Assembly (NCBI GenBank): GCA_003225075.1
Contig: QIAP01000036.1
Coordinates: 1 to 64,000 of the forward strand
Origin: Acidobacteriota bacterium
Lineage (GTDB): Bacteria; Acidobacteriota; Terriglobia; Terriglobales; Acidobacteriaceae
DNA: 64,000 nucleotides
Direction: 5' to 3'
Part shown: positions 2,908 through 22,085 of the stretch, in pieces
Layout of the letters: every line of letters starts with the position of its first letter
Position numbering within the stretch: position 1 is the first letter of the stretch
Translations under genes and position numbers: made by a program
The notes under the pieces: model-generated
Databases searched by the model: none
Told to the model about the DNA's origin: nothing
Seen by the model: the letters and a program-made list of their open reading frames with translations, nothing else

Positions 2908-3524
2908 GTGGGTGGCAGCACAAACCGTTCCAAAGCATCGCAATGTCCTTGGGCGTAAGCTGCCTTCACTACCAAGGTCCGTAGTCAGCAATACAAATAT
3001 ATCGGACATCCTGAAGCGCAGTATCCAGCGCAACAAGGGCTAACCGAGGGACTGGGCCGACGAGTAAGAGTGCACACCCAAAATTCCTGCCCAAACTCTG
3101 CCCAATCACTCTCTACAGCACTATCTAGAACCGCACAGGTCCGCCCCTGCGCAATGTGGCAAGTGTTTGTCAATGCAGTAGCTTGTTGGTTTTTAAAAAT
3201 GAATGGGTTGGACTTAAAATCCCGGGCCCCGAAAGGGGCGTGACGGTTCGATTCAAATGAATGCATTTTTATCCCGGTTTAAGCGGTTGTTAAGAATGTT
3301 ATACGACCATAGGTTTAGGTCTGATGACGTCGTCAGGCATCGCCGAAGCAGGAATACTCGGGCTTGCCTGACCTGACCAATGAGCGCCATCGCTCGCGAA
3401 TTTGTCGGCAGTAACGAGCCGGGGAACTCAAGCTGTTGAGCGCGAATCGACATCTTCTTTGATGACGAAGGAAGTGTAGAGAGAACAGCGGGTCCGGCGA
3501 CCAACCAGGGAGACAACAAGACTT
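2908..3524. other. Gene-free stretch with tRNA relic
   Basis: No convincing coding frame is visible on either strand; the minus-strand frames have no start signals and odd composition. It contains the tRNA-Leu-like relic at 3205-3255 and a near-perfect 16-base palindrome at 3321-3336 (CTGATGACGTCGTCAG, 14 of 16 positions symmetric), which could be an operator for the DNA-binding protein that starts at 3525. Confidence 0.5.
3205..3255 (+). pseudogene. tRNA-Leu(UAA) 3'-part relic, possible attachment site remnant
   Basis: The stretch reads like the anticodon loop (CTTAAAA, anticodon TAA), the long variable arm (a GGGCCCC-GAAA-GGGGC type hairpin) and the T loop (GGTTCGATTC) of a leucine tRNA, in the right order and spacing. 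The 5' half, the 3' side of the T stem and the acceptor stem are missing, and one anticodon-stem pair is broken. It therefore cannot be a working tRNA. Such 3' pieces are typically left where integrative elements enter or leave at tRNA genes. No integrase is visible nearby. Confidence 0.55.
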
Positions 3525-5738: not shown

Positions 5739-5793
5739 TCGGTCTCCGATCAGGCCTGAAATTCTAGCCCGGAGCAGTCTAGAATGGCAGAAT

Positions 5794-6870
5794 TCATCTA
5801 CGTGCAGGGACTGCCAACACTTCTGTGGCGATGGCTTCGCCCAAATCGCGGGTTGAAGCTTTGCCCCCAATGTCCGGAGTCCGGGGATCGGATCTTGCCA
5901 GGACGATCGAAATGGCTTTTTCCACACTCCGACTGGCATCCACTTCTCCCAAGTGCTGCAACATCATTGCCCCTGACCAAATCTGTGCTACTGGGTTCGC
6001 GATTCCTTTGCCGGCGATGTCGGGAGCGGAACCGTGGACCGGTTCGAACATCGAAGGATATTCCCGTTCGGGGTTGAGATTGGCGGAGGGCGCGAGCCCC
6101 ATGGAACCTACCACCGCGGCGCCCAAATCTGACAATATGTCGCCAAAGAGATTGGAGCCGACGACGACATCGAACCAATCCGGGTGTCGAACGAAATGGG
6201 CGCTCAAAATGTCGATGTGGAAATGATCAGTCTTAACGTCGGGAAACTCCCCTGCAATCACCGCGAAGCGTTCATCCCAAAAAGGCATGGTAAAGACAAT
6301 TCCATTAGACTTGGTGGCCGAAGTGACATGTTTGTTGCGCTTTTGCGCTAGTTCGAAGGCGTAGCGCATAATGCGGTCGCAGCCCCGGCGAGTGAAGACC
6401 GTTTCCTGGACCGCCAGTTCGGCATCGCTGTTGCGGAAAAGGCGGCCACCTACTTCGGAATACTCACCCTCATTATTTTCGCGAACAATGCAGAAATCGA
6501 TTTCACCCGCTTTAAAGTTCTTGACCGGGGTTTCAATGCCTTCCAGCAACTTTATGGGACGCAAGTTGACGTATTGACTGAAGGCCCGGCGGATGGGAAT
6601 TAGCAGCCCCCACAGAGAAATATGATCGGGTACTCCCGGGTATCCGACAGCTCCCAGATAAATGGCGTCGAAGGCGCGAAGTTGTTCAAGGCCATCTTCG
6701 GGCATCATGCGCCCGGTCTTTAGGTAAGTTTCGCAGCTCCAGTCGAAATGTTTCCAGGTAAAACCTATATCGTATCGCCGGCCGGCGGACTCCAACACTC
6801 TGAGCCCCTCCGGAACGACCTCCCGGCCGATGCCGTCACCTTCAATGACCGCTATTTTGTAGCGCTTCAA
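5794..6870 (-). CDS. ttuC: Tartrate / D-malate dehydrogenase-type beta-decarboxylating enzyme
   Basis: The 358-residue product belongs to the isocitrate/isopropylmalate dehydrogenase superfamily (NAD- and divalent-metal-dependent oxidation of 2-hydroxy acids). Visible family marks are IAVIEGDGIGREVVPEGLRV at the N terminus, the substrate-binding stretch NLRPIKLLEGIE, FCIVRENNEGEYSEVGG, the catalytic-lysine region SATKSNGIV and the metal site GSNLFGDILSDLGA. The ENNEGEY form and the VNLRPIKLL spacing match tartrate dehydrogenase/D-malate dehydrogenase rather than LeuB, which has a different substrate loop. It lies 40 bases after the PrpD gene and before an ACS carrier, as expected for hydroxy-acid catabolism. 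Substrate choice (tartrate, D-malate or another) is inferred. Confidence 0.8.
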   Translation of the reverse strand: MKRYKIAVIEGDGIGREVVPEGLRVLESAGRRYDIGFTWKHFDWSCETYLKTGRMMPEDGLEQLRAFDAIYLGAVGYPGVPDHISLWGLLIPIRRAFSQYVNLRPIKLLEGIETPVKNFKAGEIDFCIVRENNEGEYSEVGGRLFRNSDAELAVQETVFTRRGCDRIMRYAFELAQKRNKHVTSATKSNGIVFTMPFWDERFAVIAGEFPDVKTDHFHIDILSAHFVRHPDWFDVVVGSNLFGDILSDLGAAVVGSMGLAPSANLNPEREYPSMFEPVHGSAPDIAGKGIANPVAQIWSGAMMLQHLGEVDASRSVEKAISIVLARSDPRTPDIGGKASTRDLGEAIATEVLAVPARR

Positions 6871-6910
6871 AGTTCCTCACAGTCTTACTGAAATTCGGTT
6901 GATGTACGGT

Positions 6911-8431
6911 TTAGGCGCTGCAGAGCGAAATTAGAGAGCGCGTGTCCGCGACCTGTTCGAGCTTGCGGACGGTTTCAACGATCTGGCCGACCTTTGTCTG
7001 GGGCCAGTTAGCAAAGGCCGCGCACTGCCGGAACTTGTCAGCTACTTCGTCATAGCTCATGGGGTTCGCAGGACTTCCTTTGCCAAAATCGGCACGGCCA
7101 GATACCGTCCGTCCGTTTTTCAAATGTATCTTGATAATGGTTGTCATCTTGTCGTACCCGGCCTTTTCGGCCTCCGGATCGGTATAGAACTTGATGCGCC
7201 CAATCATCTCTTGCACGTCGGGACGATTCACGACCGCATCGGTGAATTCAGCCAGGCCTGCTTTACCTTCGAGCAGCAGGATTGCCATACAGAACTCCAT
7301 GCTGAACTTGGCCTGGAGACCAGTTTTTGGCCGGTGATGGATCAAGGTGTTGAGCATGTTGTGATTGGTTCCAACTTCCACCTGCACAACGTCGCCGGCT
7401 GAAAGGTGTTCGGTGCGAATCAAGCGCAGAAGTTCGGTCATCCCAGGATGAGTGAGCGAACCGGAAGGAAACGGCTTTATAGAAACTCCGGGCGAGGAGA
7501 ACGTCCAGGGCTTTCCGAGCTTGTCGAGAATAAAGGTGGAATCGTAGCTGCCGCCATAAGCATGAAAGAAGCCGCGCGGCGCTTCGAGAATCTGGTCCGC
7601 TGCGGTCCAGCCCAGGGCGGCGAAGTCTGCCGCAACCACGCCACTCTCAGCAGCGTGACCAGCCTGAAACGGCTTCGTCATTGTGCCAAAATTCTCCCGC
7701 AGTCCGGCAGAGTGACTTGCGGCAATAGCAAAAGCGCGGACGATATGCTCGCCGTCGAAGTTTCGCAGTTTTGCGCATGCCGCTGTGCCGCCGAAAACGC
7801 CACACGTTCCGGTCGAGTGAAAGCCGTCCTCGTAGTGCCGCGGTGCAATAGCCTCGGCGATTTTGCATTCCACCTCCACTCCAACGTGGTATGCAAGCAT
7901 CAAGTCCTTCCCGCCGATTTCGCCCGTCCCGGTATCAGCAATGGCAAGGACAGCAGGTAGAACGCAGACGGTTGGATGTACCAGCAGGCCATAGACACGA
8001 TCCTTGGCAGCCGCAAGTTGGGTGTCATCAAAGTCGTCCACGTGAATGGCAACACCGTTGGCAAACGCTGCAAATCGCGATGGCAGCTTGCCCGAGCTGC
8101 CGATGACAGTTGCTCCGCGATTCATGAACCCAAAAGACTTGGCGTAGTTCTGGATCAGATTGGCTGTTTCTGCTCTCGAACCGCTGAGTGCGAGTCCCAA
8201 ACCATCCAAAATGGATTTCTTGCCCAACTCGACGACGTCGCCTGGAATGTCTGAGAATTTAGTATTCACCACGAAGTCAGCAACATATTTCGTAACCGCG
8301 CCGACTTTTGGAAACGGCGGAGCCGAACACGGCTGGTTGGTGGGACCTTCGTGCGACGCTGATGTTGTTGCAACCCCGCTGGCGAATGCCGCGGCGCCGA
8401 CCGATGCTGCGAGGAAATCACGCCTCTTCAT
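6911..8431 (-). CDS. Tat-exported MmgE/PrpD family protein (copy 1)
   Basis: A 506-residue member of the MmgE/PrpD fold (2-methylcitrate dehydratase, cis-aconitate decarboxylase and iminodisuccinate epimerase relatives). It starts with a twin-arginine signal, MKRRDFLAASVGAAAFASG, so it should be exported folded. The family core is clear: KKSILDGLGLALSGSRAET, AIHVDDFDDTQ (the usual HxxDxDD-like region), HPTVCVLPAVLA, and KPFQAGHAAESGVVAADFAALGW. Known family enzymes are cytoplasmic or mitochondrial, so periplasmic placement is unusual. It follows the amidohydrolase by 39 bases and precedes the dehydrogenase, in one transcription unit. A second copy lies at 16668-18203. Confidence 0.8.
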   Translation of the reverse strand: MKRRDFLAASVGAAAFASGVATTSASHEGPTNQPCSAPPFPKVGAVTKYVADFVVNTKFSDIPGDVVELGKKSILDGLGLALSGSRAETANLIQNYAKSFGFMNRGATVIGSSGKLPSRFAAFANGVAIHVDDFDDTQLAAAKDRVYGLLVHPTVCVLPAVLAIADTGTGEIGGKDLMLAYHVGVEVECKIAEAIAPRHYEDGFHSTGTCGVFGGTAACAKLRNFDGEHIVRAFAIAASHSAGLRENFGTMTKPFQAGHAAESGVVAADFAALGWTAADQILEAPRGFFHAYGGSYDSTFILDKLGKPWTFSSPGVSIKPFPSGSLTHPGMTELLRLIRTEHLSAGDVVQVEVGTNHNMLNTLIHHRPKTGLQAKFSMEFCMAILLLEGKAGLAEFTDAVVNRPDVQEMIGRIKFYTDPEAEKAGYDKMTTIIKIHLKNGRTVSGRADFGKGSPANPMSYDEVADKFRQCAAFANWPQTKVGQIVETVRKLEQVADTRSLISLCSA

Positions 8432-8470
8432 AGTGATGGCCTGATATGCACCCTCCGAGATTTCTGCGTT

Positions 8471-9790
8471 TCACTTGAGATCATTTCTTATGACCTGTCC
8501 GCCCTTCATTACGAATTTGACGCGCTCAAGTTCTGTAATGTCGGACAGAGGATCGCCGGAGACCGCCACCAGGTCCGCAAATTTCCCGACTTCCAGGGTG
8601 CCTACTCGATCTTGCCATCCCATAAGCTCTGACGCTACTGAGGTCGCCGCCCGAATGGCTTGCGCCGGGGTCATGCCAAACTTGACCATATATTCGAATT
8701 CTTTGGTCTGCGAGCCATGAGGAAACGGACCCGCTCCCGATCCAAATGCGATCTTCACTCCGCGCGCAACCGCCTTGCGAAAGCTCGGTTCTGAAGCCTC
8801 GGCAACACTGTGTCCTGCGAATTTTTTCTGATCGTGCTCCTTGTCCAATTGGTAGTGGTACAGCGTGGGCACGAGGTATATACCCTTGTCTAACATCTTT
8901 TTTATCGCCGAATCATCCAGAACGACCCCATGTTCGATGGAATCGACCCCAGCATCCAGGCAATGGTGCAAGCCTTCGCCGCCAAAAGCATGGCACGAGA
9001 CCTTCCGGCCCTTGCCGTGCGCTTCATCCACAATCGCCTGTACTTCTTCAAGGGTGAAAGTAGGAGGGATCACCATTTTGCCGTTGGCATCAAAAGTGAA
9101 ATCGTAGGCCGCATACAGTTTAATCAGATCGGCGCCGTGCGCGACCTGTTCGCGCACGGCTTGGCGCGCGGCCCAGGGCGAGTCGACAACCTCCAGCGCG
9201 GTGGGGACCGGGACCTCGCTTGAATAACCCCTCATGATGAATCCACCCGTGGTCTGAATGCCTCGAGTGGCAACCTGCATTCGAGGACCCTGGACCACGC
9301 CGTGGTCGATCGCATTTCGCAGGTCCACGTCGCTGTACATGGCTCCGAGGGTCTTCAGGTCGCGCAGGGTGGTGAAACCCACCATCATGTCTTTTTGTGC
9401 GTTTGCCAGCGCGGTCAGCGTTCGATATTGCCAGGAATCCCGTAGAATTTGCATTTCCAGATCAGGCCCGTTGCCGAATACATGGGTGTGGGTGTCGATG
9501 AGGCCAGGCAAAACTGTGGCGTGGCTAAGATCGATGACGCGCGCGCCGGCGGGTATCCTGATGCGATCTGCTGGTCCTACGTCCGTGATCCGGTCCGCTC
9601 GAATCAGAATGACTTGATCCGTCGAGAGCCGGTCCGACTTGCCGTCAAACAGCCGTCCGGCACGGACGGCGACCTGGTCATTTTCTTTGATTGTATTTTC
9701 TTTGATTGCAGTTTGGGCGGAAAGAGGCGCGAGCCACGCCAGTAGCAAGAATGCAATTATCGGAGTTCTCTTTGGCATCTGGGAGCGCAA
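8471..9790 (-). CDS. Secreted amidohydrolase, possibly missing a metal-binding Asp
   Basis: A 439-residue exported hydrolase of the imidazolonepropionase / Xaa-Pro dipeptidase-like branch. A signal peptide (IIAFLLLAWLAPLSAQ) leads into the beta-sandwich and TIM barrel. Metal motifs are PGLIDTHTHVFG, the lysine region GADLIKLYAAYD, VSCHAFGGEG and SIEHG. Where relatives read FGTDxGPFPHG, this protein reads FGSGAGPFPHG, so the usual catalytic/metal Asp is Gly352; activity may be altered or lost. The C terminus (VGTLEVGKFADLVAVSGDPL) is standard. An in-frame 15-base duplication lies just after the signal peptide. It is the first gene of the four-gene unit, behind the repeat array at 9829-9861. 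Confidence 0.8.
   Translation of the reverse strand: MRSQMPKRTPIIAFLLLAWLAPLSAQTAIKENTIKENDQVAVRAGRLFDGKSDRLSTDQVILIRADRITDVGPADRIRIPAGARVIDLSHATVLPGLIDTHTHVFGNGPDLEMQILRDSWQYRTLTALANAQKDMMVGFTTLRDLKTLGAMYSDVDLRNAIDHGVVQGPRMQVATRGIQTTGGFIMRGYSSEVPVPTALEVVDSPWAARQAVREQVAHGADLIKLYAAYDFTFDANGKMVIPPTFTLEEVQAIVDEAHGKGRKVSCHAFGGEGLHHCLDAGVDSIEHGVVLDDSAIKKMLDKGIYLVPTLYHYQLDKEHDQKKFAGHSVAEASEPSFRKAVARGVKIAFGSGAGPFPHGSQTKEFEYMVKFGMTPAQAIRAATSVASELMGWQDRVGTLEVGKFADLVAVSGDPLSDITELERVKFVMKGGQVIRNDLK
9680..9709. repeat. 15-bp tandem duplication in the amidohydrolase N terminus
   Basis: Two adjacent copies of ATTTTCTTTGATTG(T/C) encode the repeated peptide TIKEN-TIKEN just behind the signal peptide. The length keeps the frame. 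It looks like a recent slippage event. Confidence 0.85.
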
Positions 9791-9828
9791 TCGTCTGTTA
9801 GTGAGATTAAGCAGAGATGAATACCAAA

Positions 9829-9861
9829 TGAAACTTCATTCAAACTGAATGAGAACTTCGC
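9829..9861 (-). promoter_or_regulatory. 11-bp-periodic direct repeats, candidate OmpR-type regulator site
   Basis: Three 11-mers stand in phase: TGAAACTTCAT, TCAAACTGAAT and GAGAACTTCGC, with AACT starting at 9832, 9843 and 9854. A period of exactly 11 bp is the usual layout of binding sites for OmpR/PhoB-family dimers. The middle also forms a perfect palindrome, TCATTCA-AAC-TGAATGA (9836-9852), so a TetR-type site is an alternative. It lies 39 bases upstream of the amidohydrolase start, downstream of the kinase gene. Confidence 0.45.
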
Positions 9862-9954: not shown

Positions 9955-11424
9955 TTATGACCTTTCTTCCGAAACCGTTATCGGCACTTTTGTAGTGTTG
10001 GGGGACTCGCCGCCATGGGAAGGCGCCAGAGGCAGGCTGACAATGAAACGGCTGCCTAGACCTTCCGTACTCGTGATTCTTATTTCAGCGCCCAGCGCGG
10101 TGCAGATGGCCTTCACAATGGCAAGCCCCAAACCGGCACCGCCAGAATCCCGCGAGCGGGCTTTGTCTGCCCGGTAGAAGCGTTCAAAAACGTGCGGGAG
10201 AACTTCTGCCGAAATTCCAACGCCGCTGTCTGATACCTCCACCGTGGCGGAGTGCTGGTTCGCGCCCACATCAATATTTATCCCGCCACCCGGGGGCGTA
10301 TATTTGATGGCGTTGTCAATCAAGTTTACGATTACCTGTTTTAAACGCGCCTGGTCCGCCTCAATGTATACCCCACCCGCCGCATGGCACTGCATCGACA
10401 GTAATTTTTCCTCAGCCAGAAGTTTCATCTGATCGACAGTGGATACCGCCAGTTCGCCGAGATCAAATTTCATCTTTTCGATGTGAACCTCTCCTGCATC
10501 CAAACGCGAAATCACCAGGAGATTCTCAACGATCCTGGACAAGCGGTGGGTCTCTTCCAAAGCGCTTCCAATTTGGTCAACCAACTCCGGATCGAGACGG
10601 TAGTGCTGAATCATTCCCTCCAATTCCAGTTGGAGAATGGTCAGCGGAGTCCGCAATTCATGGGAAGCATCGGCAGAGAAGCGATTGATATGCTGGAACG
10701 CGTCGTCCAACCGGGCAATCATGTGATTGAGCGCAGTCGATAAGCGCTCGAGTTCGTCACCCGTCTTGATGATGGGCAAGCGTTCGCTCAGGTTCGTGGA
10801 GGTTATGCCCTGTGCCCGCTTGGTTATTTCATCGACGGGCCGCAGAGATCGCCTCATCAGCCAATAGCCACCAACTATCGCCAAAGAAACCGCCAACGGC
10901 ATATAAATCCCAAGCGTCACCAGTAATCCATGCAAAATATTTTCTATCGGGTCGTAAGCTGCTCCGCTCTCGACGAGAAACCGCTTTCCATCAGGGTTAG
11001 TGAAAACCATGCCGGTCACGAGTAACCGATGGCCACCCGCCATCCCAAAATGCTTCAAATACCCCTCTTTGCCATTAGTGGTAAACGATGGGACGCGAGA
11101 GGGATCGAAGCTGTTATCTTTCGGCGGCCCCGAGAGGTAGAGGATTTCACCGTCCGCTCCCGTGACACGAATGAAGTGTCCATTGACGTCGGGGGCATAG
11201 GCCTCATTAATTTCGGACGCAAGCCAGCCAGGCCGCTTGGACGGAATACTAGCCAGCAACTGTGTCCCGATCGACCGGGATTGTTCCGTCAATGTTTTCT
11301 GTAAACTGAAATCCAGGTAGCGCTCGAGACCGGCATAAACAAAGACTCCAAAAAGCAATAAGGCGCTCGCGAGAAGTCCCGCATACCATGCTGTCATTCG
11401 AAAACGAAGCGAACGGGGGTTCAC
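9955..11424 (-). CDS. Membrane sensor histidine kinase
   Basis: A 489-residue two-component kinase. One transmembrane helix (about 11-32), a periplasmic sensor region of roughly 130 residues, a second helix (about 166-190), a HAMP linker (RRSLRPVDEITKRAQGI), the dimerisation/phosphorylation domain with His255 (FSADASHELRTPL), and an ATPase domain with the N box (NLIDNAIKYTPPGGG), G1 (DSGVGIS), F box (FERFYRADKARS) and G2 (GAGLGLAIVKAI). It should autophosphorylate and pass the phosphate to the regulator encoded just upstream; the two genes overlap by 4 bases, which suggests translational coupling. The sensor part matches nothing I know, so the signal is unknown. Context suggests the catabolic substrate. 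Confidence 0.93.
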   Translation of the reverse strand: MNPRSLRFRMTAWYAGLLASALLLFGVFVYAGLERYLDFSLQKTLTEQSRSIGTQLLASIPSKRPGWLASEINEAYAPDVNGHFIRVTGADGEILYLSGPPKDNSFDPSRVPSFTTNGKEGYLKHFGMAGGHRLLVTGMVFTNPDGKRFLVESGAAYDPIENILHGLLVTLGIYMPLAVSLAIVGGYWLMRRSLRPVDEITKRAQGITSTNLSERLPIIKTGDELERLSTALNHMIARLDDAFQHINRFSADASHELRTPLTILQLELEGMIQHYRLDPELVDQIGSALEETHRLSRIVENLLVISRLDAGEVHIEKMKFDLGELAVSTVDQMKLLAEEKLLSMQCHAAGGVYIEADQARLKQVIVNLIDNAIKYTPPGGGINIDVGANQHSATVEVSDSGVGISAEVLPHVFERFYRADKARSRDSGGAGLGLAIVKAICTALGAEIRITSTEGLGSRFIVSLPLAPSHGGESPNTTKVPITVSEERS

Positions 11425-12101
11425 GATTGCGCTCCATCACTGATGGTGTACCCGACGCCGCGCACCGTTCGAATCAACTTACGTTGATGTGAGTCGTCCA
11501 CTTTGTTGCGAAGGTGCCGAACATAGACGTCGACTATGTTAGTAATTCCGTCGAAACTCTGGTCCCAGACATGCTCGATGATCATTGTTCGAGAGAGGAC
11601 TCTGCCGGCATTCGACATCAGATATTCAAGCAACGCATATTCTTTTGAAGTCAGATCAATTCGTTTGCCGCCGCGTTTTACCTGTTGAGAAAGACGGTCA
11701 AGCTCTAAATCGTCCACTCGAACTGTGCTGCTGCGGCTCACCGGCCCTCGTCGCAACAGCGCCTTCACGCGCACCAGGAGTTCAGCGAATGCGAAAGGCT
11801 TGGTCAGGTAATCATCGGCTCCCGCTTCAAAGTTGCCGACCTTGTCAGACACTGCGTCGCGGGCGGTGAGGATGAGAACTGGAACGGTAGAATTCTTATG
11901 TCGAATACGACGGAGGACTTCGGTTCCATCCATGACTGGCAACATCAAATCCAGAATCACCAGATCATAGTGATAGGTATTCGCCAGTTCGAGCCCGCTC
12001 TGGCCGTCTCGGGCCACGTCTACCGCGTAGCGCTCAGCCATTAGCCCACGGGCGACAAAACTGGAGACCTTAGCCTCATCTTCGACTAACAACATACGCA
12101 T
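11421..12101 (-). CDS. OmpR-family response regulator
   Basis: A 226-residue regulator. The start at 12101 gives MRMLLVEDEAK; an extension of 12 residues is open upstream but adds nothing to the fold. The receiver has the acidic pair in VEDE, phospho-acceptor Asp51 (VILDLMLP), Thr/Ala in LTARD and Lys101 (DYLTKPF). The C-terminal winged helix shows LTSKEYALLEYLMSNAGRVLSR and VDVYVRHLRNKVD, ending RTVRGVGYTI. It is paired with the kinase gene (4-base overlap). Arrays of 11-bp direct repeats upstream of its own unit and upstream of the amidohydrolase unit fit the binding mode of this family, so it probably controls both. Confidence 0.93.
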   Translation of the reverse strand: MRMLLVEDEAKVSSFVARGLMAERYAVDVARDGQSGLELANTYHYDLVILDLMLPVMDGTEVLRRIRHKNSTVPVLILTARDAVSDKVGNFEAGADDYLTKPFAFAELLVRVKALLRRGPVSRSSTVRVDDLELDRLSQQVKRGGKRIDLTSKEYALLEYLMSNAGRVLSRTMIIEHVWDQSFDGITNIVDVYVRHLRNKVDDSHQRKLIRTVRGVGYTISDGAQS

Positions 12102-12164: not shown

Positions 12165-13184
12165 CTAGGGCAGCACCTTATAAACTCGCAGCTCGGCGGT
12201 TCGGCTTGCGTGATGTGGCACTGCTAAATAATAGCGATTCAGTTCAGGAATTAAAATGGCGGTCTTCGCACGGAACGAAGTCGGAATGTGTCCGATGAGA
12301 TCATAGTGATCTGGGTCGTGCTGCTGGAAAACGTCGATAAACTCGTTTCCCGCGAAGTAGATGCGCTTGTGATCACCATCGTAAGCCATGTCATCGACCA
12401 TCGCCGGGGCGGGCAAACTACTCACAACTTTTCCCGAATCAGTGTCAAGAATAATCAGTTTTCCGGGATCGCGTGTGCCGGCAAAAAGCCGGTGACCAGC
12501 CTCGTCAAAAGCTATCGCAGTCGGCTTCTTTGCTTCGCCCAGGGGCCAGGTTGCTAACAGCTTTCGTGTTGTGCGGTCAAAAACTTCTACCGTGTTGTTA
12601 CCCCTTATAACCACGAACATCCGCGGACCCGCCTTCTCCAGTGCCATCCCCTCCACGTCATTCGAATCGATCTTGATATCGGCGACCGATTTAGCGGTGT
12701 TGGTGTCAATAACACTAATATAGGCATTCGGTAAATGCGCGTCTTTACCCCCGTTCACAACATACAAGTACTTCGTGGATGGATCATATAAGCTCGCATC
12801 CGCACCTTTCTTCAACTTGATGGTTCCCACCGGTTTGTAAGCATCGGTTTCATAAATCTTAACCTCTCCCAGATCGCCGTCTACTACGAAAAGCTTCTTC
12901 AAATCGGGCCGGTATAGCATCGAGTGTGGCGCCTTGAGATCACTGATTGTGCGAATGAGTTTGTTGGTTTTCAGATCAAAAACCAGTACTTTCGAGTTCT
13001 CTTCCGCGGTGGAGAACAGCCGGTTTCCCGGAAGGTCCACTGCAAAGTGGTCGAAGTCCCCGTCATGCAGCTCGGGCAATGGCGTAGATTGCGAAAGTGC
13101 AAGGGGCGCTTTTTTTTGCGCCCAAGCGCCGAGCATCAGTACAAGAACAAGTGCGGGCAAAAGCATTGTTTTCGTTTTATTCAA
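12165..13184 (-). CDS. Secreted YncE-like beta-propeller protein
   Basis: About 339 residues. I place the start at TTG 13184 (AGAGG five bases upstream; MNKTKTMLLPALVLVLMLG gives a good signal peptide); ATG 13166 is the alternative. The mature protein is a chain of YVTN-type blades: FDHFAVDLPGNRLFSTAEENSK, KVLVFDLKTNKLIRTI, KYLYVVNGGKDAHLPNAYIS, VIDTNTAKSVADIKI, KLIILDTDSGKVV. Such propellers bind ligands or proteins and have no own catalysis. Its place in front of the response-regulator and kinase genes, in the same direction and 63 bases away, suggests a periplasmic accessory or sensing role for that system; this is inference. Confidence 0.75.
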   Translation of the reverse strand: MNKTKTMLLPALVLVLMLGAWAQKKAPLALSQSTPLPELHDGDFDHFAVDLPGNRLFSTAEENSKVLVFDLKTNKLIRTISDLKAPHSMLYRPDLKKLFVVDGDLGEVKIYETDAYKPVGTIKLKKGADASLYDPSTKYLYVVNGGKDAHLPNAYISVIDTNTAKSVADIKIDSNDVEGMALEKAGPRMFVVIRGNNTVEVFDRTTRKLLATWPLGEAKKPTAIAFDEAGHRLFAGTRDPGKLIILDTDSGKVVSSLPAPAMVDDMAYDGDHKRIYFAGNEFIDVFQQHDPDHYDLIGHIPTSFRAKTAILIPELNRYYLAVPHHASRTAELRVYKVLP

Positions 13185-13319
13185 CTCTGCCTCTGATGTT
13201 GAAAATAAGACCGTCAAAAGATCAATACTTCTAGATTGGAGCTTATGCAGTCGAAATGCGATCGAACACCACGAAACTACACGCATCGGATCTACTAGAT
13301 GCCACTCTTATTAGGAGGG

Positions 13320-13352
13320 ATAAACATGAAATGGACATTAAATGAGCATTAA
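13320..13352 (-). promoter_or_regulatory. Three tandem 11-bp repeats, candidate response-regulator operator
   Basis: Three contiguous 11-mers read ATAAACATGAA, ATGGACATTAA and ATGAGCATTAA on the plus strand (minus strand TTAATGCTCAT, TTAATGTCCAT, TTCATGTTTAT). They share CAT(G/T)AA at the same phase and lie 136 bases upstream of the yncE-like start, in the only sizeable gap between the two minus-strand units. The tandem 11-bp layout fits an OmpR/PhoB-type regulator, such as the one encoded 1.2 kb downstream. An apparent 8-codon frame here, behind AGGAGGG, is explained by the repeats. Confidence 0.6.
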
Positions 13353-13437
13353 AAAATGTTCAGTGCTGTCGATCTATGACAGGTCCACCCTGCTGTCCAG
13401 CCAGGAACACGGGGACCTACACTACGGGCTCTACCGG

Positions 13438-14790
13438 TTACACCTGGGTAGATCTTGCGGTCCGAGATTCCCGGCTTTTTGTTACTCCAACTGCAAGCAT
13501 AAGAGCGCCTGAGACAAACAGGCTGATTACCAGATACCACAATCCTGGGGCGAATGAATGCGTACGATTTGCCAGGTAGCCAATCACGAAAGGTCCAGCA
13601 AACCCGCCCAGGTTCCCCACGGAATTGATCAGGCCAATCGATGCGGCCGCAGCCGACTCGCTCAGAAACAGCGTGGGTACTGCCCAAAAGCAGGGCTGAA
13701 AACCATAAAAACAAGCCCCGACCAGAACGAATAGTGCGATTGAAATTGCCGGTCTGGAGGAGTAAATCACCGCGAGCGAAAGGGCCGCACCGCACAGAAT
13801 GACTGGGAGAGCAGCATGCCACCGGCGCTCGCCGGTTCGATCCGAATGCCATCCGTTCAATTGCTGGGTTACGAACCCTGCAATATACGGCATGGCAGCC
13901 AGCAGGGTTACATTCATATCGCTTTGTCCGGAAAGTCGCTTCACGATGGTCGGCAGCCAAAATGCGATTCCGTAACTTCCGGTCATCGCGCAGAAATAGC
14001 ATAGCGTTAGCAAAAGTACGTCGCGATTGCGCAGGGCTCCCCAGACGCTGAAAGAATGAACGCGTTTCTTAGCCTCTTTCTCTCGCCGCAGTTGCTCGGT
14101 AATCCAGGATCGTTCATCCGCGGGCAGCCAACGAGCCTGTTCCGGCCAATCCGTGAGATAGAAAATCGTAATCACTCCTAACACGACTGCCGGAATCCCT
14201 TCGATGATGAACAGCCATCGCCAGCCTCTCATGCCCAGCCACGAAAGCCCGAGCAACAAGCCTGCAAGCGGCGAACCAATTACGTAAGAAAGCGGATTGG
14301 CAGCATAGAAAACGGCGACCGCTTTGGCCCGGTCCTGGTAACGGAACCAGTGGGTCAGGTAGACGATAACTCCCGGCAGGAACCCTGCTTCGGCGGCGCC
14401 CACCAGGAAACGCACCCAATAGAATTGTCGCGGCGTGTGAATGAAAGCCATCAACACGGTTACGATTCCCCAGGAAATCATGATGCGAGCGATCCAGCGC
14501 CGGGCACTCCATCGCTCTACGATCAATGCGCCAGGAATTTCCAGCAGGAAGTACCCAAGAAAGAAAATGCCGGCGCCGAAGCCAATCACACTGGGGCTGA
14601 AACCCAGGTCAGCCGGCATCTGCAGAGCCGCCGCTCCAATGTTCATTCGATCCAGAAAAGCAATCACGTAGAGCACAAACAGAAAAGGGAGAAGTCGCCG
14701 CGCAATGCGGCGCCTGGCGCGTACTCCGACCTCTTGCTCCGAGGCAGAAAACGCTACGGTCTGTGTTGGGTTATCAACCGACTCGGGCAT
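13438..14790 (-). CDS. MFS transporter, tartrate-transporter-like ACS family
   Basis: A 450-residue inner-membrane carrier with 12 predicted helices. The ATG at 14790 is chosen because it lies 11 bases after the preceding gene's stop and removes a polar extension that overlaps it. Family marks are LLPFLFVLYVIAFLDRMNIG in helix 1, GIFFLGYFLLEIPGALIVER, and RFLVGAAEAGFLPGVIVYLT in helix 4. These resemble TtuB/phthalate-type organic-anion carriers. It is the last gene of the receptor - PrpD - cytochrome/propeller - carrier unit. It differs from the first MFS carrier of the locus, so two related acids, or uptake plus export, are possible. Confidence 0.85.
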   Translation of the reverse strand: MPESVDNPTQTVAFSASEQEVGVRARRRIARRLLPFLFVLYVIAFLDRMNIGAAALQMPADLGFSPSVIGFGAGIFFLGYFLLEIPGALIVERWSARRWIARIMISWGIVTVLMAFIHTPRQFYWVRFLVGAAEAGFLPGVIVYLTHWFRYQDRAKAVAVFYAANPLSYVIGSPLAGLLLGLSWLGMRGWRWLFIIEGIPAVVLGVITIFYLTDWPEQARWLPADERSWITEQLRREKEAKKRVHSFSVWGALRNRDVLLLTLCYFCAMTGSYGIAFWLPTIVKRLSGQSDMNVTLLAAMPYIAGFVTQQLNGWHSDRTGERRWHAALPVILCGAALSLAVIYSSRPAISIALFVLVGACFYGFQPCFWAVPTLFLSESAAAASIGLINSVGNLGGFAGPFVIGYLANRTHSFAPGLWYLVISLFVSGALMLAVGVTKSRESRTARSTQV

Positions 14791-14801
14791 GCTTCTCAGC
14801 T

Positions 14802-16667
14802 TTAGTGCAGAACTAGGGTATTCAGGCGCTTCGGAACTTCTCCTACGGGAATCAGCGCCACGATTTTCAGCGTACTTATGTCGATCGCAGTCACCGACTT
14901 TGCCCCGGAGTTCGAAACATAGACCACCTTGCTGTCGGGAGTGAAAGTGATCCACTCCGGCACCGCGCCTGAAGGCGCGCGTCCCAGCGGATGAACTTCG
15001 GGTAGTTCGACCGATCCAATCAGCCTGAGTTCCGGCAAAGAATATGCAAAGACAGAGTTGGCGAAGGTGCTGTTAACCCACAAGGATTTTCCATCCGGCG
15101 AAACTCCGATTCCGTGCGAGGGAGTACCTTCTCGTCCCTCGGCAATTCCAAATCCGGGGGACTTATCCGGGAACTTGATCCTGGCCACTTCCGCGCGCCT
15201 GGCAAAGTCGACCACTGCGAACCCGTTGAACCGGGAAAGTTGAACGAAAATGCGGCGAGTCGAACCGTCGGGGTTGGTCTCGAAAGCCATGGGCCGCACT
15301 GACCGGTCGAACTTTACCTCCCATATTGCGCGCTCGCCCTGAAGATCAATCACGGTGGCGGCTTTGCTTTCCAAGGATCCGCTGACCGCGTACTTACCGT
15401 CGGGAGTGATGTACACATTGTGTACACCACCGTCCACGGGGATGCTCTTCACACGCGTAAGCGAAGTTGTGTCGATCACATCGACAACGCCCGGCTCCGA
15501 GCGGATACCGACCAGCACCCGGCCTCCGTCTTTCGTGATTGCTATGTTGTTCGGACGTCCGCTCAGCGTCACTTTCTTAAGAATTTCCCCCCTGACTCGA
15601 TCTACCACGTCGAGCACGTTGTCCGATTCGTTGCTGATGTAGACTCGGGCTCCATCGGGAGAAAACGCGACGCCATGCGGCAATTCGATCCCATGTATCA
15701 CTTGTACGACGTTGTTGGTTGCAGAATCGATGACATCAACCGTGTCGCCAGCGCTGTTGGTGACATAGATCAGCGCAGATTTGGACAATGCTGGAGGGTC
15801 GACTGCTCCAGCACGTACCCATTCAGCTATCACAAGCCAGTCGGGATCGTTCTGCGAGTCAAACTGCCTGCCGCCGGAATGAAACGGATCTCCACCGGCT
15901 TCCGGCCCCAGTGGATGCATCAGCAGTCTGCTTGCAATTGGATCCCCGGGAACCACTTCCTGGAGAGCGCTCTGGAAGTTTCGCTGTGACTGCTCTTCTG
16001 TCCAACTCGTGCTTCCGGGAGGGATGGGCTCGAGATAAAACGCTCTGCCCTGCTGACTGTGGCAGCTGTAGCATCGCGCGTGGCCCGGCCTCGCCTTCAG
16101 GAAAATCGGCTCAACCTTACTCTTGAAAAAATCGAAGTCCAGCGTGTTCTTCTTTGCCGCGGGAGAAGATTGCTGCTGGCTGGGAAATCCTTTGCTGACC
16201 CAATCGGCAATCAACCGCCATTCCGGGTCGTCTTGCGATTTCCAGAATTTACCCCCGGCGTGCGTCGGATCACCGCCTGCCTCTGGCGAAAGTGGATGAA
16301 GGAGTAGGCGGCTTTTCAGTGGATCCGCGGGCGTAACCAGTTTCGAGACGACGCTAAAGTTTCGGCGCGATTGTTGCTCGGTCCACGAGGAACTTCCGTC
16401 TGACAGCCGCTCCAGACGCAAGCGCGTGGGCAAGGCCGAATGACAATCGTAGCAGCGCACGCCGCCTTCCCGCGTCTTGAGGAAGATAGGTTCAATGCGA
16501 GTCCGGTAGGTCTCAAAATCAAGGGATGATTGCACCTGCGCTGGGCTATCCGCTTGATTGCCATGTGCTGCAGGTGCAGCTTTGGCCAGTTCTCTCGCCG
16601 CTAAAAGTAAGCCACTTAGAGCGGCGATCAGAGACATTACAACCTTCGCTTGTTTCAGGTGGCCCAT
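14802..16667 (-). CDS. Fusion of two CxxCH modules with a YVTN beta-propeller
   Basis: A 621-residue exported protein. After a signal peptide (VVMSLIAALSGLLLAA) come two copies of a module of about 120 residues, near 48-165 and 175-290. Each has IEPIFLK or VEPIFLK, a CxxCH site (CYDCHS, CYSCHS), the W-T-E-x-Q-S-x-R-N-F motif, HPL(S/G)PEAGGDP and a closing WRLIADWV or WLVIAEWV. From about 295 to the end follows a seven-blade-type YVTN propeller (IYVTNSAGDTVDVIDS and similar). CxxCH implies covalent c-type haem, as in planctomycete-type cytochrome modules; the propeller may dock an electron donor. Its start codon abuts the PrpD stop, so it is co-translated with copy 2. Confidence 0.8.
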   Translation of the reverse strand: MGHLKQAKVVMSLIAALSGLLLAARELAKAAPAAHGNQADSPAQVQSSLDFETYRTRIEPIFLKTREGGVRCYDCHSALPTRLRLERLSDGSSSWTEQQSRRNFSVVSKLVTPADPLKSRLLLHPLSPEAGGDPTHAGGKFWKSQDDPEWRLIADWVSKGFPSQQQSSPAAKKNTLDFDFFKSKVEPIFLKARPGHARCYSCHSQQGRAFYLEPIPPGSTSWTEEQSQRNFQSALQEVVPGDPIASRLLMHPLGPEAGGDPFHSGGRQFDSQNDPDWLVIAEWVRAGAVDPPALSKSALIYVTNSAGDTVDVIDSATNNVVQVIHGIELPHGVAFSPDGARVYISNESDNVLDVVDRVRGEILKKVTLSGRPNNIAITKDGGRVLVGIRSEPGVVDVIDTTSLTRVKSIPVDGGVHNVYITPDGKYAVSGSLESKAATVIDLQGERAIWEVKFDRSVRPMAFETNPDGSTRRIFVQLSRFNGFAVVDFARRAEVARIKFPDKSPGFGIAEGREGTPSHGIGVSPDGKSLWVNSTFANSVFAYSLPELRLIGSVELPEVHPLGRAPSGAVPEWITFTPDSKVVYVSNSGAKSVTAIDISTLKIVALIPVGEVPKRLNTLVLH

Positions 16668-18203
16668 TCAACCCTGTTGGTTCGACACGGAATTTGGAAT
16701 GGCAGACTGCTTCGCGTGATCAGGTCCGCGAAGTAGGGGTCGAAGCTCGCGTATGTCCTTCACATTATCGAGTCCGAGCACGCGTTCGATCAGCTTCGAG
16801 CATGTGGCAGCGCCGAGGACAGGTGTCATCAATTCACGCGCCTTCGCGACTACCTCGGCTGGTGTCATCGGGTTATCAGGAGTGCCGCGCACATGCTCGA
16901 CACGTTCATTGAGTTTCGTACCGTCAGTTAGCGTAACTTCAACGACCGCCACTCGTACCGGTATCAGCTTCTCCAGTTCCTCGTCGGGCACGAGCTGCAC
17001 TTTAGCGCGCTGACGAAGCACCGCTGGATCCTGCATCCGCGCCTTATCGTGCGCTGCGCGGAAGGAGACCGTCTTGTCGAGCAGCATCACCGCCACCAGG
17101 TGCTGTAGACAAATATCCGGCATATCGCGGTTGTTCACAGTGTAGGCTGCGCTGGTGGCGGTACGTACGACCACCTTCTCCACCTGGTCCGCCTGAAATG
17201 GCTGGCGCTTTTGCAGATTTTCGAGCGCGTCGAGGGGCGCCTGAATCGGACCTCCCGTTGTCCACTTCTTCAGGGTCGTGAGCATCACCCCGTAGACTAC
17301 GCCAAGCTGGTCGATCATCCCCGCCGGATCCGCTTTAGGGTTATACGACTCCACGAAATTGTTGGGGCCGGACAGAATATCGTTGACGCCACTCCAGCCT
17401 TGGTGAACGACCAGGGCAGCGTTGACCCCGTTGCGCGCTCCCATGGCGCCGAACAGGAAAGCCTTTTCGACGTGCTCGGTATCGCGGCGCCACGCGCCGA
17501 TGCCGGCGCCAGCCTGCTGCGCTGCATAATCAAGCAGCCAGCGCATCTGCTGGCCACTTAGGCCAGCGACGCAGCCGGCGGCGGCGCTCCCTCCCATGGT
17601 TCCGACCAGATTGTGTGTTTCTTTCATCCCCGGACCGACGGTCTTCATAGCCTGCAGGGCGATGTCGTAGCCCAGGGCCACGGCGCGCAAGAAATGCGTC
17701 CCGCTAATTCCGAACTGTTCCCCCAAAGCCAGCGCCGCAGGCACCACCGCGCAGCCCGGGTGCGCTCCCCCGGTAGTGAAATCGTCGTCGGTTTCATCGG
17801 AATGAGCCAGTTCGCCGTTTGCGAATGCCGCCTCAATAGGTCCGCAGAGAATCTGCGAGGCGACAACAGTGGCAATCTTCTGGCCACCATAGCTGCGAGC
17901 GAACTCGATCGCCAAACGTCCGGGGGGCAACTCGGATCCGGAAACCATGGCGGCGAAGGTGTCCAGAATGTGATGTTTCGTCTCCCGCACCACATTCTCC
18001 GGCAGCGCGCGATTGCGAGCCTCAGCCATATATGCGCTGAGCTTTTCCATGGCGGGACTGACTTCTTGACCCGCGGCCGTTGCCAGCCGGGAAAACGCTG
18101 CAGCGGCGGTGATCCAGACCGCGTGCTGCAACAAACTACGGCGGGTCAGGGTTCGCGGGAGGGTTTCACGCCCCATAGCTGCGCATCGATCTTCTTTATC
18201 CAC
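16668..18203 (-). CDS. Tat-exported MmgE/PrpD family protein (copy 2)
   Basis: A 511-residue relative of copy 1, but clearly diverged. The start is a GTG at 18203; ATG 18176 is an alternative that keeps the twin-arginine signal (TRRSLLQHAVWITAAAAF). The core reads ETKHHILDTFAAMVSGSELPPG, LAHSDETDDDFTTGGAHPGCAVVPAALAL, GSAAAGCVAGLS, and KKWTTGGPIQAPLDAL. The charged HSDETDDD region is the family's active-site side. The N-terminal RR motif predicts export to the periplasm. It sits 22 bases after the receptor stop and directly abuts the haem/propeller gene, suggesting that a periplasmic reaction is coupled to electron transfer; this is inference. Confidence 0.78.
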   Translation of the reverse strand: MDKEDRCAAMGRETLPRTLTRRSLLQHAVWITAAAAFSRLATAAGQEVSPAMEKLSAYMAEARNRALPENVVRETKHHILDTFAAMVSGSELPPGRLAIEFARSYGGQKIATVVASQILCGPIEAAFANGELAHSDETDDDFTTGGAHPGCAVVPAALALGEQFGISGTHFLRAVALGYDIALQAMKTVGPGMKETHNLVGTMGGSAAAGCVAGLSGQQMRWLLDYAAQQAGAGIGAWRRDTEHVEKAFLFGAMGARNGVNAALVVHQGWSGVNDILSGPNNFVESYNPKADPAGMIDQLGVVYGVMLTTLKKWTTGGPIQAPLDALENLQKRQPFQADQVEKVVVRTATSAAYTVNNRDMPDICLQHLVAVMLLDKTVSFRAAHDKARMQDPAVLRQRAKVQLVPDEELEKLIPVRVAVVEVTLTDGTKLNERVEHVRGTPDNPMTPAEVVAKARELMTPVLGAATCSKLIERVLGLDNVKDIRELRPLLRGPDHAKQSAIPNSVSNQQG

Positions 18204-18225: not shown

Positions 18226-21200
18226 CTAGAAGATCACTTTGACCGCGAACTGAATCTCCCGCGCTGTAGTCGTCGTCCTGGAGAGCAAACCCGCCACGCC
18301 CGTAGGTGATCCTGTCCCATCGAAGATGTCAGTATTGTCGGGCGTCACGGGCGGGGCGAAGTTGGCGTGATTGAGGATGTTGAAGATTTCAGCACGGAAC
18401 TGCACGTTGAACCTCTCCGAGATGCTCCTGATGTAGTTGTTCTTAAAGATCGAGAAATCCAGGTTCGTGAGCCCGGGACCGATCAGGATATTGCGACCAG
18501 CGTTGCCTCGAAGATTGAAGCATTGTGGAAAAACCGCTGGGACTGGGGGTAGCGTTGGGTCACTTGGCTGGATGCTGGGGGGGAACGGATTGCAGTTCGC
18601 GTTCCAAAAGGCCAAATCCGGCGCGCTGGGCACCGCGAAGCACTGGGTCTTAATGTAATTGGTAACATTCCCGGGATTGGTAAGCGTTTTACATCCCGGG
18701 CCGCCCAGTCGGTCCGGGAAAGCCCAATCGTCGCTGCTGTTTGTGTTGGCAGGATCGGATCCCGTCCCCCAAGTCGGGGAGAACGGTATGCCGTCACTGG
18801 CCGTAAAGATAACTCCCAGTTCCCATCCGCCCAACGCCCATCGAGCTGGCCCGGAAAGCGATTTGGGCGATGGAACCTCCCAGGTGCCATTCAGAACAAA
18901 TGTCCGGCCAACGTTGAAATCAGACAGGCCACGGCTCAACTTCAAATCGAACCAGTCCAGGCTGGAGATCGAGTTACCGAAAGAATCGCCCGCCCCGGTC
19001 GCCGAACTCGTATCCATGCTCTTAGCCCAGGTGAAAGTGCCTTGTAGCTGAAAGCCGTGGCTCATGCGCTTGGCGACCTGTGTTTCCAGCGCATTGTAGT
19101 AAGAGTGTCCGTTGTAAAACATGGCCCGAACTGAGCCGAAGTTTGTGTTGAGCGGATCTAATGGGGCGCCCAGGTTTCCGTTTGGTGGAGGACCCGCCGG
19201 ATCGCGGTCAAACGGCCACACGTATCCGGCGGAAGTCTTCGTGGGGAGAACCATATTGGCTTCATCTACGCGGAAGGGCTGATGTATGCCGCGTGATCCC
19301 ACATAAGCAACCATTGCAGCCAGACTCGGGGTGAGCTGCTGCTGTACATTGAGGTTCCACTGCACGACGTAATCGCGCTTAGGGTGCTGAACATAGGTGG
19401 AGCGCAGTGTGTTAGCGGATATGTCCTCTGGAGGCACAGTAAAAAATGTAAGCGGTGTTGGCAGGTTCGGACCCGCATTGATGGCGGTATATGAGAAGAA
19501 GGGCGCCGCTTGAGTGGTCAGAAGTATGAACTGATAGGGCAGCGGAAGCACATCGAACATTCCAACGCCGCCGCGAACTGCGGTTCTCCCGTTGGTTAAC
19601 GGGTCCCATGCAAAACCAACCCGCGGTTCAAAATTCTTCAGCGTGGGGTTGTTATAGAAGGGGGTGCCAAGGTGGGGGTTGGCGTCCGGGAGGTTCGCCA
19701 GATTTGCCAGCTTGCCGCTAGTCTCGGACAGCACGGTCGACATCTCGTAACGCAGCCCCAGATTCAAGGTCAGATTGGGCCGCCACCGCCAGTCGTCTTG
19801 CAAATACGCACCGAAAAGCGTCTGGCGAAGATTGCGCGGTGAAAGCGTGCTGGCAATGCCACCTTGGAATTTGGTGGGATTATTGGTGAGAAAATCCTGC
19901 AACGTCCCGAAGTGCCAGATTCCATTTGGATCGGTGTCGGCAAGTACATTGAGCAGCATACGTTCAGCGGTTACGCCGAACTTTAAGGAATGAGTGCCTT
20001 TGGTGAAGAAGGCATCGTCATAGGCTTGTATTGAATTCCAATGGTAAAAGTAAGTCGGGCTTCCCCCAACTCCGCCAGTGAAGGGCGTAACGCCTTCCAT
20101 GAAAACCTGGGCCGCGGCACGCCCGGCAAACGCGGTGCCCCCGGCGCCTAGATCTGTCCTGGCTGCGTCGGGATTGATCGCTTTCAGGCTCTCATTATTG
20201 TTCACCCCTTCGTGGTTGCCTCCAATGCGGATTGAATTCGCGAAGCGTGGGCTGAACATGTGAGTCTCTTCCACCGAAACCAGCTGCCTCGAGGTCAGCG
20301 TAGTGAACAGAACATTGTTCAGTCCGTCCGGGGCCGAGTAGGGGGTTTTGTCGAACATGTACGTGCCGAACAAGCTGTCGTGATCGGAGAACTTGTGGTC
20401 TACGCGGGTGGTGAGGAAGTTCTCGTTAACCACCTGCTGGCCGGCGAAAGTGAATGGTCCAATGTCTCCATTCCCGATAAGCGGCCCATTGGGCAGATGG
20501 TAGAAGGTAAAGTAGGCCGCCGCGCTGGGATCTACAGTGACTTGGGTCGGGGTGCACGGATTATTGGGGTCCCCGTTCGGAATCGAGCACAACTGTCCTG
20601 CCCGTGCCGCCGCGGAGGGCACAGTCGTAAATGACGAAATTCCCTTTGACTGCCGGATACCTTCGTAGTCGGCGAAGAAGAAGGTGTGATTCTTGATAAT
20701 GGGTCCGCCCACCGCTCCTCCAAACTGGTTACGCTTGAAGGGCGGTATTTTGTCTCCATCGAAATAGTTCCTGGCATCCAACGCGCTGTTCCGAAGAAAC
20801 TCGTAAACACTTCCATGAAACTGATTGGTTCCCGAACGTGTAATGGCATTGACGACGCCACCGGACGTTTTTCCGTATTCCGCCGAGTAGTTGCTGGTCA
20901 GGACAGAAAATTCTTGGATGGCGTCTACACCCAGGTTCCCTCCCAGGACGCTGCCTGGAGCTCCGTTTGCGTAATCGTTCAGGCTAACGCCATCCAGCCG
21001 ATAATTGTTCTGCTGCGGCCGGGCGCCCGAGATCGTCAGTTGTTGTCCGAAACCGCGATTTCCTCGATCCGTGCCGGCGGCGAAGGTTGGCTGGGTCTGG
21101 ATTGCGTTGACCCCAGGCTGTAGTTCTGCCAGGTCCGTCCAACTGCGGCCATTCAGAGGCAACTCGCGGACGGTGGTGGCGTTGACGACGGCGCTGATGT

Positions 21201-21615
21201 CGGAGCTGGCAAGCTGTACATCGGGAACCTCGCCGGTCACCTGCAGAGTCTCGATGGCGGTGCCGACTTGCATCGTCAGATCCAAAACCGCCGCTGCTCC
21301 GACGGTCAATACGATGCCGCTCCGCACCTCCGTCTTGAATCCTGGCGCAGAAAACTTTAGCTCGTAGCTCCCCGGCAGCAGATTCGGCGCAGTGTACAAC
21401 CCCTCTTCATTGGTGGCGGCGGATCGGCTAACCCCCGTGTCCACGTTCGTGATCGATATTTGTGCGCCAGGAATAACTCTGCCGCTGCTGTCGACGACCG
21501 TCCCTGAAATCGTTCCGCCCGCCACTTGGGCGCCCGCTGGAAGGTGTGCGGTGGCTCCGTAGATAAGTACCAAAGCAAAAAGACTCCAACCAAACCCTTT
21601 CAAACGTGAGTTCAT
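18226..21615 (-). CDS. TonB-dependent receptor with carboxypeptidase-regulatory domain (Oar-like)
   Basis: A 1129-residue outer-membrane transporter. The start is fixed by AAAGGGGG upstream of ATG and a signal peptide ending at PAGAQ. Residues 30-110 are the carboxypeptidase-regulatory-like fold (GGTISGTVVDSSGRVIPGAQIS, SAPGFKTEVRSG). Residues about 125-235 are the plug (VRELPLNGRSWTDLAELQPG, LDGVSLNDYANGAPG, VLTSNYSAEYGKTSGGVVNA). The rest is the barrel, closing with a C-terminal aromatic (IQFAVKVIF). It uses proton-motive energy through TonB to import a bulky substrate. First gene of the receptor - PrpD - haem/propeller - MFS unit, so its ligand is probably the substrate of the locus. Confidence 0.92.
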   Translation of the reverse strand: MNSRLKGFGWSLFALVLIYGATAHLPAGAQVAGGTISGTVVDSSGRVIPGAQISITNVDTGVSRSAATNEEGLYTAPNLLPGSYELKFSAPGFKTEVRSGIVLTVGAAAVLDLTMQVGTAIETLQVTGEVPDVQLASSDISAVVNATTVRELPLNGRSWTDLAELQPGVNAIQTQPTFAAGTDRGNRGFGQQLTISGARPQQNNYRLDGVSLNDYANGAPGSVLGGNLGVDAIQEFSVLTSNYSAEYGKTSGGVVNAITRSGTNQFHGSVYEFLRNSALDARNYFDGDKIPPFKRNQFGGAVGGPIIKNHTFFFADYEGIRQSKGISSFTTVPSAAARAGQLCSIPNGDPNNPCTPTQVTVDPSAAAYFTFYHLPNGPLIGNGDIGPFTFAGQQVVNENFLTTRVDHKFSDHDSLFGTYMFDKTPYSAPDGLNNVLFTTLTSRQLVSVEETHMFSPRFANSIRIGGNHEGVNNNESLKAINPDAARTDLGAGGTAFAGRAAAQVFMEGVTPFTGGVGGSPTYFYHWNSIQAYDDAFFTKGTHSLKFGVTAERMLLNVLADTDPNGIWHFGTLQDFLTNNPTKFQGGIASTLSPRNLRQTLFGAYLQDDWRWRPNLTLNLGLRYEMSTVLSETSGKLANLANLPDANPHLGTPFYNNPTLKNFEPRVGFAWDPLTNGRTAVRGGVGMFDVLPLPYQFILLTTQAAPFFSYTAINAGPNLPTPLTFFTVPPEDISANTLRSTYVQHPKRDYVVQWNLNVQQQLTPSLAAMVAYVGSRGIHQPFRVDEANMVLPTKTSAGYVWPFDRDPAGPPPNGNLGAPLDPLNTNFGSVRAMFYNGHSYYNALETQVAKRMSHGFQLQGTFTWAKSMDTSSATGAGDSFGNSISSLDWFDLKLSRGLSDFNVGRTFVLNGTWEVPSPKSLSGPARWALGGWELGVIFTASDGIPFSPTWGTGSDPANTNSSDDWAFPDRLGGPGCKTLTNPGNVTNYIKTQCFAVPSAPDLAFWNANCNPFPPSIQPSDPTLPPVPAVFPQCFNLRGNAGRNILIGPGLTNLDFSIFKNNYIRSISERFNVQFRAEIFNILNHANFAPPVTPDNTDIFDGTGSPTGVAGLLSRTTTTAREIQFAVKVIF

Positions 21616-22085
21616 GGAGCAACCCCCTTTTTGGGCACGCAGCTTGGCTTGATATCGAGAAAAGGATTAGAAAACATCACTCTGTATGTTTCGACCCATC
21701 TGCTTGGAGCAGACTGGCAGCTTGACGAGAGAGTAACTGCAAAAGCCTGGGTTCCAAAGAAACCTCGGTTCTGCTCATAACCCTAAACCTTTGTAGCCGG
21801 TTTCCCTAGTTCCCATCAAAGCAACCCAGGTGGCCGTGCCCAAAGACAGGATCTTGGTCAGGAAGAGAGCACTAGAGACAATGTTCCCCAAATATTAATT
21901 GTGCATAAACGCAGAATGAAAATCTTTTCATTGACCGTGGCGTGTCACCCGCTCCTCTCTGAACCCACCCCAGAACGCACTGGACGCGTGCTTTCGAGGA
22001 ATTTCGATGGTATAGTTCCACTCTGTCGCGGGTTCCCGAAGTCTTTAGTTCGTTAACACAAAAGATTTCGGAACGGAGGGGAAAA
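21616..22085. other. Divergent intergenic region between receptor and repeat protein
   Basis: 470 bases carrying both promoters. Between 21749 and 21829 there is a cluster of AAACC / GGTT(T/C) half-sites, including AAACC-N9-GGTTT, which may be regulator sites; no clean palindrome stands out. Near 22007-22020 TATAGT could be a -10 box for the plus-strand gene. The minus-strand frame at 21872-22228 overlaps the real gene and is not supported. Confidence 0.4.

Follow-up and report, generated by a model that had tools for sequence, protein, structure and literature searches.

The three 11-bp tandem repeats at 13320-13352 of the window (the whole 64,000-nucleotide stretch of DNA that was analysed) very likely belong to the operator on which the neighbouring response regulator acts, and this regulator is predicted to be a class II activator of its own unit and of neighbouring ones. 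The best reading of the sequence is an autoregulated local regulon of propeller, TonB-receptor, transporter and amidohydrolase operons, in which the regulator very probably binds a four-part landing pad to control itself and neighbouring uptake and surface-protein genes. The genes concerned are:

18226..21615, minus strand: TonB-dependent receptor gene at the head of a putative unit
12165..13167, minus strand: YncE-like secreted beta-propeller (propeller repeats), first gene of its unit
11421..12101, minus strand: response regulator of the OmpR/PhoB family, CusR/CopR-like (Response_reg and Trans_reg_C; recognition helix TNIVDVYVRHLR)
9955..11424, minus strand: partner sensor histidine kinase (HAMP, HisKA, HATPase_c)
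8471..9778, minus strand: gene for a secreted, Xaa-Pro dipeptidase-like amidohydrolase that heads a putative four-gene operon

The regulator possesses a receiver domain (PF00072) and a winged-helix Trans_reg_C domain (PF00486), both above the Pfam cut-off, which is the domain make-up of the OmpR/PhoB family. Against TIGR01387, the CusR/CopR/SilR heavy-metal subfamily, it scores 269.5 bits, narrowly below the cut-off of 279.2, and the partner kinase is likewise narrowly below that of TIGR01386 (284 against 292.55). Because these subfamily cut-offs are missed and the targets are not metal genes, the regulator should not be filed as CusR or CopR; no description of this two-component system was found in the literature. 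The product of 12165..13167 scores under the curated YncE cut-offs (PF21783, 21 against 27.1; NF052280, 60 against 400), so it is a looser propeller relative and "yncE" is only a loose name for it. From gene order, the putative amidohydrolase operon extends to 4380 through PrpD/MmgE-like, isopropylmalate/tartrate-dehydrogenase-like and MFS genes, and the putative TonB-receptor unit extends to 13438 through genes for a PrpD/MmgE-like protein, a cytochrome/propeller protein and an MFS transporter. The PrpD/MmgE-like, isopropylmalate/tartrate-dehydrogenase-like and sugar-acid/aromatic-acid-type MFS genes (4380-9778, 13438-18203) hint at carboxylic-acid catabolism. A 15-bp tandem duplication, ATTTTCTTTGATTGT (9680-9709, 93% identical), is also present within the amidohydrolase gene, close to the 5' end.

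Read on the plus strand, ATAAACATGAA, ATGGACATTAA and ATGAGCATTAA follow one another without gaps at 13320-13352, between the end of the MFS transporter gene (13438) and the start of the YncE-like propeller gene (13167). On the minus strand, which is the orientation of the genes downstream, the array reads TTTAAT-N5-TTTAAT-N5-TTTCAT (13353..13326) with an 11-bp period. An exact match to CATKAA-N5-CATKAA-N5-CATKAA is found a single time in the window and nowhere else in the 4.79-Mb genome, with no match for the reversed-pattern control and no copy in 100 dinucleotide shuffles of the window; the three in-phase repeats described in a first-pass annotation are confirmed to the letter, and the genome-wide search for CATKAA repeats at 11-bp spacing that it suggested returns a unique triple. 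The looser pattern of three YTTMAT units with at most one mismatch is found at two places in the genome, this array and that at 9829, against an expectation of 0.00 for the window. A general repeat finder passed over the array at 13320-13352 because of its degeneracy. Taken on its own, an array so short and degenerate might be put down to chance AT-rich repeats, or to a structural promoter element without a dedicated regulator. The zero expectation in shuffles, the clustering of matches in the genome, the conservation of the array as an island amid unalignable flanks and its recurrence across phyla leave that reading next to no probability, and we regard it as refuted by the genome-wide and cross-genome tests.

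The repeats form one section of a composite operator, consisting of an inverted half-site cTGAAn, N4, three in-phase direct half-sites and a -10-like hexamer. In an initial alignment of ten sites, picked mainly on their direct repeats from this genome and three relatives, an inverted TGAA lies nine bases before the first repeat in eight sites, and in most sites the last repeat is followed at exactly 10 bp (at 9 bp in one) by a -10-like hexamer, neither feature having been used in the picking. A 55-column profile built from these ten training sites, with the inverted half-site and -10 columns included, gave 19-43 bits for nine of the ten in leave-one-out scoring (null maximum 7.8 bits over 670,854 reversed positions); the site of the yncE-like gene in genome G012 failed at 1.9 bits. 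The profile found further sites, including 21878-21932 and the weak 3256-3310; 22 sites align without gaps as TCTGAAnnnnnTTTCATnnnnnnTTCATnnnnnnTTAATn(10)TAnnnT, and the final model, trained on 22 operator sites, finds four operators in the window:

13310..13364, minus strand: operator/promoter of the yncE-regulator-kinase unit, found by pattern and profile and as a conserved island in orthologous MFS-yncE intergenic regions
13363-13358, minus strand: its half-site E1, inverted, CTGAAC
13353-13348, minus strand: its half-site E2, TTTAAT
13342-13337, minus strand: its half-site E3, TTTAAT
13331-13326, minus strand: its half-site E4, TTTCAT
13315-13310, minus strand: its -10-like element, CCTAAT
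9790..9844, minus strand: operator upstream of the amidohydrolase gene (the 9829 array), found by profile and conservation
21878..21932, minus strand: operator upstream of the TonB-dependent receptor gene; 19.4 bits by the profile, 28.2 bits (E 8.5e-8) in the model
3256..3310, plus strand: weaker operator-like array without a clear target gene; 16.6 bits by the profile, 19.9 bits (E 3.6e-5) in the model

The operator at 13310..13364 scores 19.2 bits in leave-one-out (null maximum 7.8) and 22.8 bits (E 4e-6) with the 22-site model; its array is among the weaker ones and its -10 (CCTAAT) is poor. That at 9790..9844 (E1 TTGAAT, E2 TTTCAT, E3 ATTCAT, E4 CTTAAT, -10-like GACGAT) reaches 40.7 bits in leave-one-out and has a conserved counterpart in G001, a genome of the same genus, where it precedes the orthologous gene (L032 8016-8043), while the receptor operator recurs at the equivalent position in G001 and in a locus on a second contig of this genome, C41. 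The next open reading frame after the plus-strand array (3525-4256) encodes a 243-aa protein with helix-turn-helix matches; a tRNA-like stretch near position 3200 was not confirmed. The first-pass annotation was right about the three repeats but overlooked the inverted fourth half-site upstream of them, and its second array at 9829 is real, but the window has four operators rather than two. With this half-site and a fixed spacing to the -10-like element, the operator is more elaborate than was then seen.

Both of these features reappear in 126 additional sites from other genomes that were chosen by direct repeats alone: TGAA stands at the single expected position in 102 of them and in 0 to 8 at any other offset, and the -10 score peaks at offset 10 only (mean -0.26, against -4.5 to -9.3 elsewhere). 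The first two half-sites (E1-E2) make up a 6-4-6 inverted box, cTGAAn-N4-TTTMAT, so that the inverted-repeat core of CusR/CopR/AgrR-type operators is present; the target genes are also preceded by in-phase direct half-sites with a spacing of about 11 bp. An inverted box ATGAA-N6-TTCAT upstream of some orthologues was considered as a separate motif and rejected, being E1 plus E2 of the operator.

The array and its geometry follow directly from the computation, as do its link to the regulator and the identity of the genes it heads. The nine best model matches in the 4.79-Mb genome all fall on C82, the contig of the window, and on C41, which bears a frame-broken copy of the regulator gene. That copy (L037 9363-10034) is split over three frames with no kinase found beside it, and the arrays upstream of its neighbour genes look intact. 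The window regulator may act on both clusters; a faulty MAG assembly is a possible alternative account of the split gene. When 120 relatives were searched with the array model, the regulator playing no part in the search, strong matches led to genomes with a regulator orthologue (70-87% identity), and eleven genomes outside the training set have array and orthologue (70-87%) on one contig. Of 399 genomes drawn evenly from the class, the regulator is found in 18 and arrays in 16, with 13 genomes containing the two together (Fisher p about 5e-18), and one of the three array-only genomes has a frame-broken regulator. An array is present in G349 and G365, in which a close regulator orthologue was not found. 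In G365, a small secreted Ala/Lys-rich protein is encoded by nearly identical genes in tandem (L134 on contig C15, about 5251-6629, minus strand), with repeated array-like matches between them.

At the loci of regulator orthologues, an array scoring above the null maximum and at most 400 bp from the regulator start was found in 75 of 79 cases, usually beginning 62-85 bp before the start codon. By phylum, as labelled in the titles of records that are mostly metagenome bins, this amounts to 37/39 in Acidobacteriota, 22/23 in Verrucomicrobiota and 13/13 in Proteobacteria. Counted over distinct loci from all sources, an array accompanies 88 of 95 orthologues and 3 of 26 paralogous regulators; the window is itself one of the seven orthologous loci lacking a strong array within 400 bp of the regulator, its array lying one gene further upstream. 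Nearly all array-bearing orthologues share the recognition helix TNIVDVY(V/I)RHLR, and those of the paralogues end in NYLR, SFLR or similar. Two paralogous regulators from another family of the order (near L025 and L028) have moderate array-like sites within 400 bp, of 22-23 bits by the profile.

Since the position of a motif alone cannot separate autoregulation from control by another protein, and OmpR-family half-sites are alike, some other OmpR-family regulator of the same genome might bind the arrays, with the adjoining regulator gene merely one target. This is quite improbable, as the presence of arrays tracks this regulator's orthologue across genomes and phyla, and its recognition helix rather than paralogous regulators. 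The closeness of array and regulator gene could be due in part to shared descent, an explanation disfavoured because the flanks of the conserved array island are unalignable. Absence of the repeats from orthologous loci, the finding that the first-pass annotation named as counting against it, was not observed: the array is kept in the MFS-yncE intergenic regions of G083 and G075, where no other island upstream of the orthologous yncE-like gene (68-74% identical) is clearly conserved. MAGs labelled Verrucomicrobiota and Gammaproteobacteria carry regulator orthologues that are 71-77% identical (L175-L224), which suggests that either the module was transferred from phylum to phylum or the bins are mislabelled.

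Within the fetched loci, 195 distinct strong sites precede the regulator gene (70), genes for yncE-like propellers (33), TonB receptors (19) and amidohydrolases (11), or else PrpD/MmgE-like, phosphodiesterase, PBP-like, TolC-like, MFS and other genes, or no clear gene; the TolC-like targets are outer-membrane proteins. The regulator itself, propellers, TonB receptors and amidohydrolases make up most of the targets, in place of the metal-resistance genes of CusR, CopR and AgrR. Three of the window's arrays each stand at the head of a same-strand gene run, and the three runs, which together span 21.6 kb down to 4.4 kb, are by their gene order putative operons. Both the observation and the interpretation of the first-pass annotation are supported by these comparisons. 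Its link between the 11-bp repeats and an OmpR/PhoB-family regulator two genes downstream agrees with the co-occurrence, the orthologous loci and the near-absence of arrays at paralogues; the autoregulation that it predicted fits the placement of an array shortly before the regulator gene in three phyla, and its regulon of at least two units grows to three window units and probably the C41 cluster.

We propose that E1 and E2 would be bound as a head-to-head 6-4-6 pair and that E3 and E4 would follow as in-phase direct repeats 11 bp apart, the regulator occupying four half-sites on one helix face by analogy with AgrR and ArcA. Because 10 bp separate the end of E4 from the downstream -10 element, the bound regulator would cover the -35 region and most likely touch polymerase from the -35 position, giving class II (pho-box-like) activation. 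It would drive the TonB receptor-PrpD-propeller-MFS unit, the yncE-regulator-kinase unit (autoregulation) and the amidohydrolase-PrpD-dehydrogenase-MFS unit, and probably the second cluster on C41, whose own regulator copy is broken. We infer binding, its dependence on phosphorylation, activation rather than repression, the operon extents and the signal. The regulator might instead repress, wholly or mainly, through negative autoregulation by a complex overlapping the promoter, given that the array lies over the -35 region and a protein bound there can block polymerase, that the -10 is very close to the start codon at the regulator gene itself, and that ArcA, which uses similar repeats, often represses. 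We hold repression to be unlikely, since the row of three or four half-sites stops 10 bp short of the -10 and leaves no good -35 hexamer, half-sites replacing the -35 are the usual layout of PhoB-type and AgrR-type activation, and a single spacing is maintained across all target types. In most orthologous loci (L147-L225) no more than about 10-25 bp separate the predicted -10 from the regulator start codon, which would give a nearly leaderless regulator mRNA.

The sequence makes regulator, DNA code and target genes readable in many genomes of three phyla; to our knowledge the regulons of soil Acidobacteriota are almost without experimental study. The function of the regulon could readily be tested in a cultured relative such as Edaphobacter lichenicola, whose regulator orthologue is 76% identical, the operator motif can be used to annotate uptake clusters in uncultured genomes, and the composite operator bears on how CopR-like dimers are arranged over mixed inverted and direct half-sites. 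A wider proposal, held with middling confidence, is that the module is common to several phyla, probably moved between them with its operator, and represents a new operator class of the CopR-like group, one that always combines an inverted half-site with three direct ones and would control outer-membrane nutrient capture instead of metal defence.

The pho box of PhoB and the PmrA box are 11-bp-period direct repeats that end about 10 bp before the -10 and replace the -35, as the arrays here do. The TTTAAT-N5-TTTAAT of the array presumably resembles the PmrA box, whereas we take both boxes to differ from it in half-site sequence, in having no extra inverted half-site and in serving another regulon. 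The closest known design, an inverted repeat with in-phase direct repeats, is the box of AgrR from Cupriavidus metallidurans. This regulator of the CusR/CopR-like group is autoregulated and acts in a type II arrangement; its site is a 6-4-6 inverted box with in-phase direct repeats that are important for activation (PMC7380067). The present operator shares with it and with the related CopR/PcoR inverted-repeat boxes the regulator group and the 16-bp 6-4-6 inverted box, and with the AgrR box also the extra in-phase direct half-sites, the type II activator position and the autoregulation, here predicted. The half-site differs: the consensus is TTTMAT/cTGAAn rather than the ATKACA/TGTMAT of CusR/CopR/AgrR, in AgrR ATTACA/TGTAAT (ATKACANNNNTGTMAT). 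The two extra direct repeats are the rule here but an occasional extra in the AgrR box, and the targets are propellers, TonB receptors, transporters and hydrolases, whereas AgrR, CopR and PcoR serve metal resistance. The ArcA sites of E. coli are likewise built of several direct repeats (two to five, often three to five) at 11 bp centre to centre (PMC3798270), but they are scattered genome-wide and based on direct repeats, whereas the arrays described here are local to the regulator gene and carry one inverted half-site. The kind of system is already known; the regulon itself is new.
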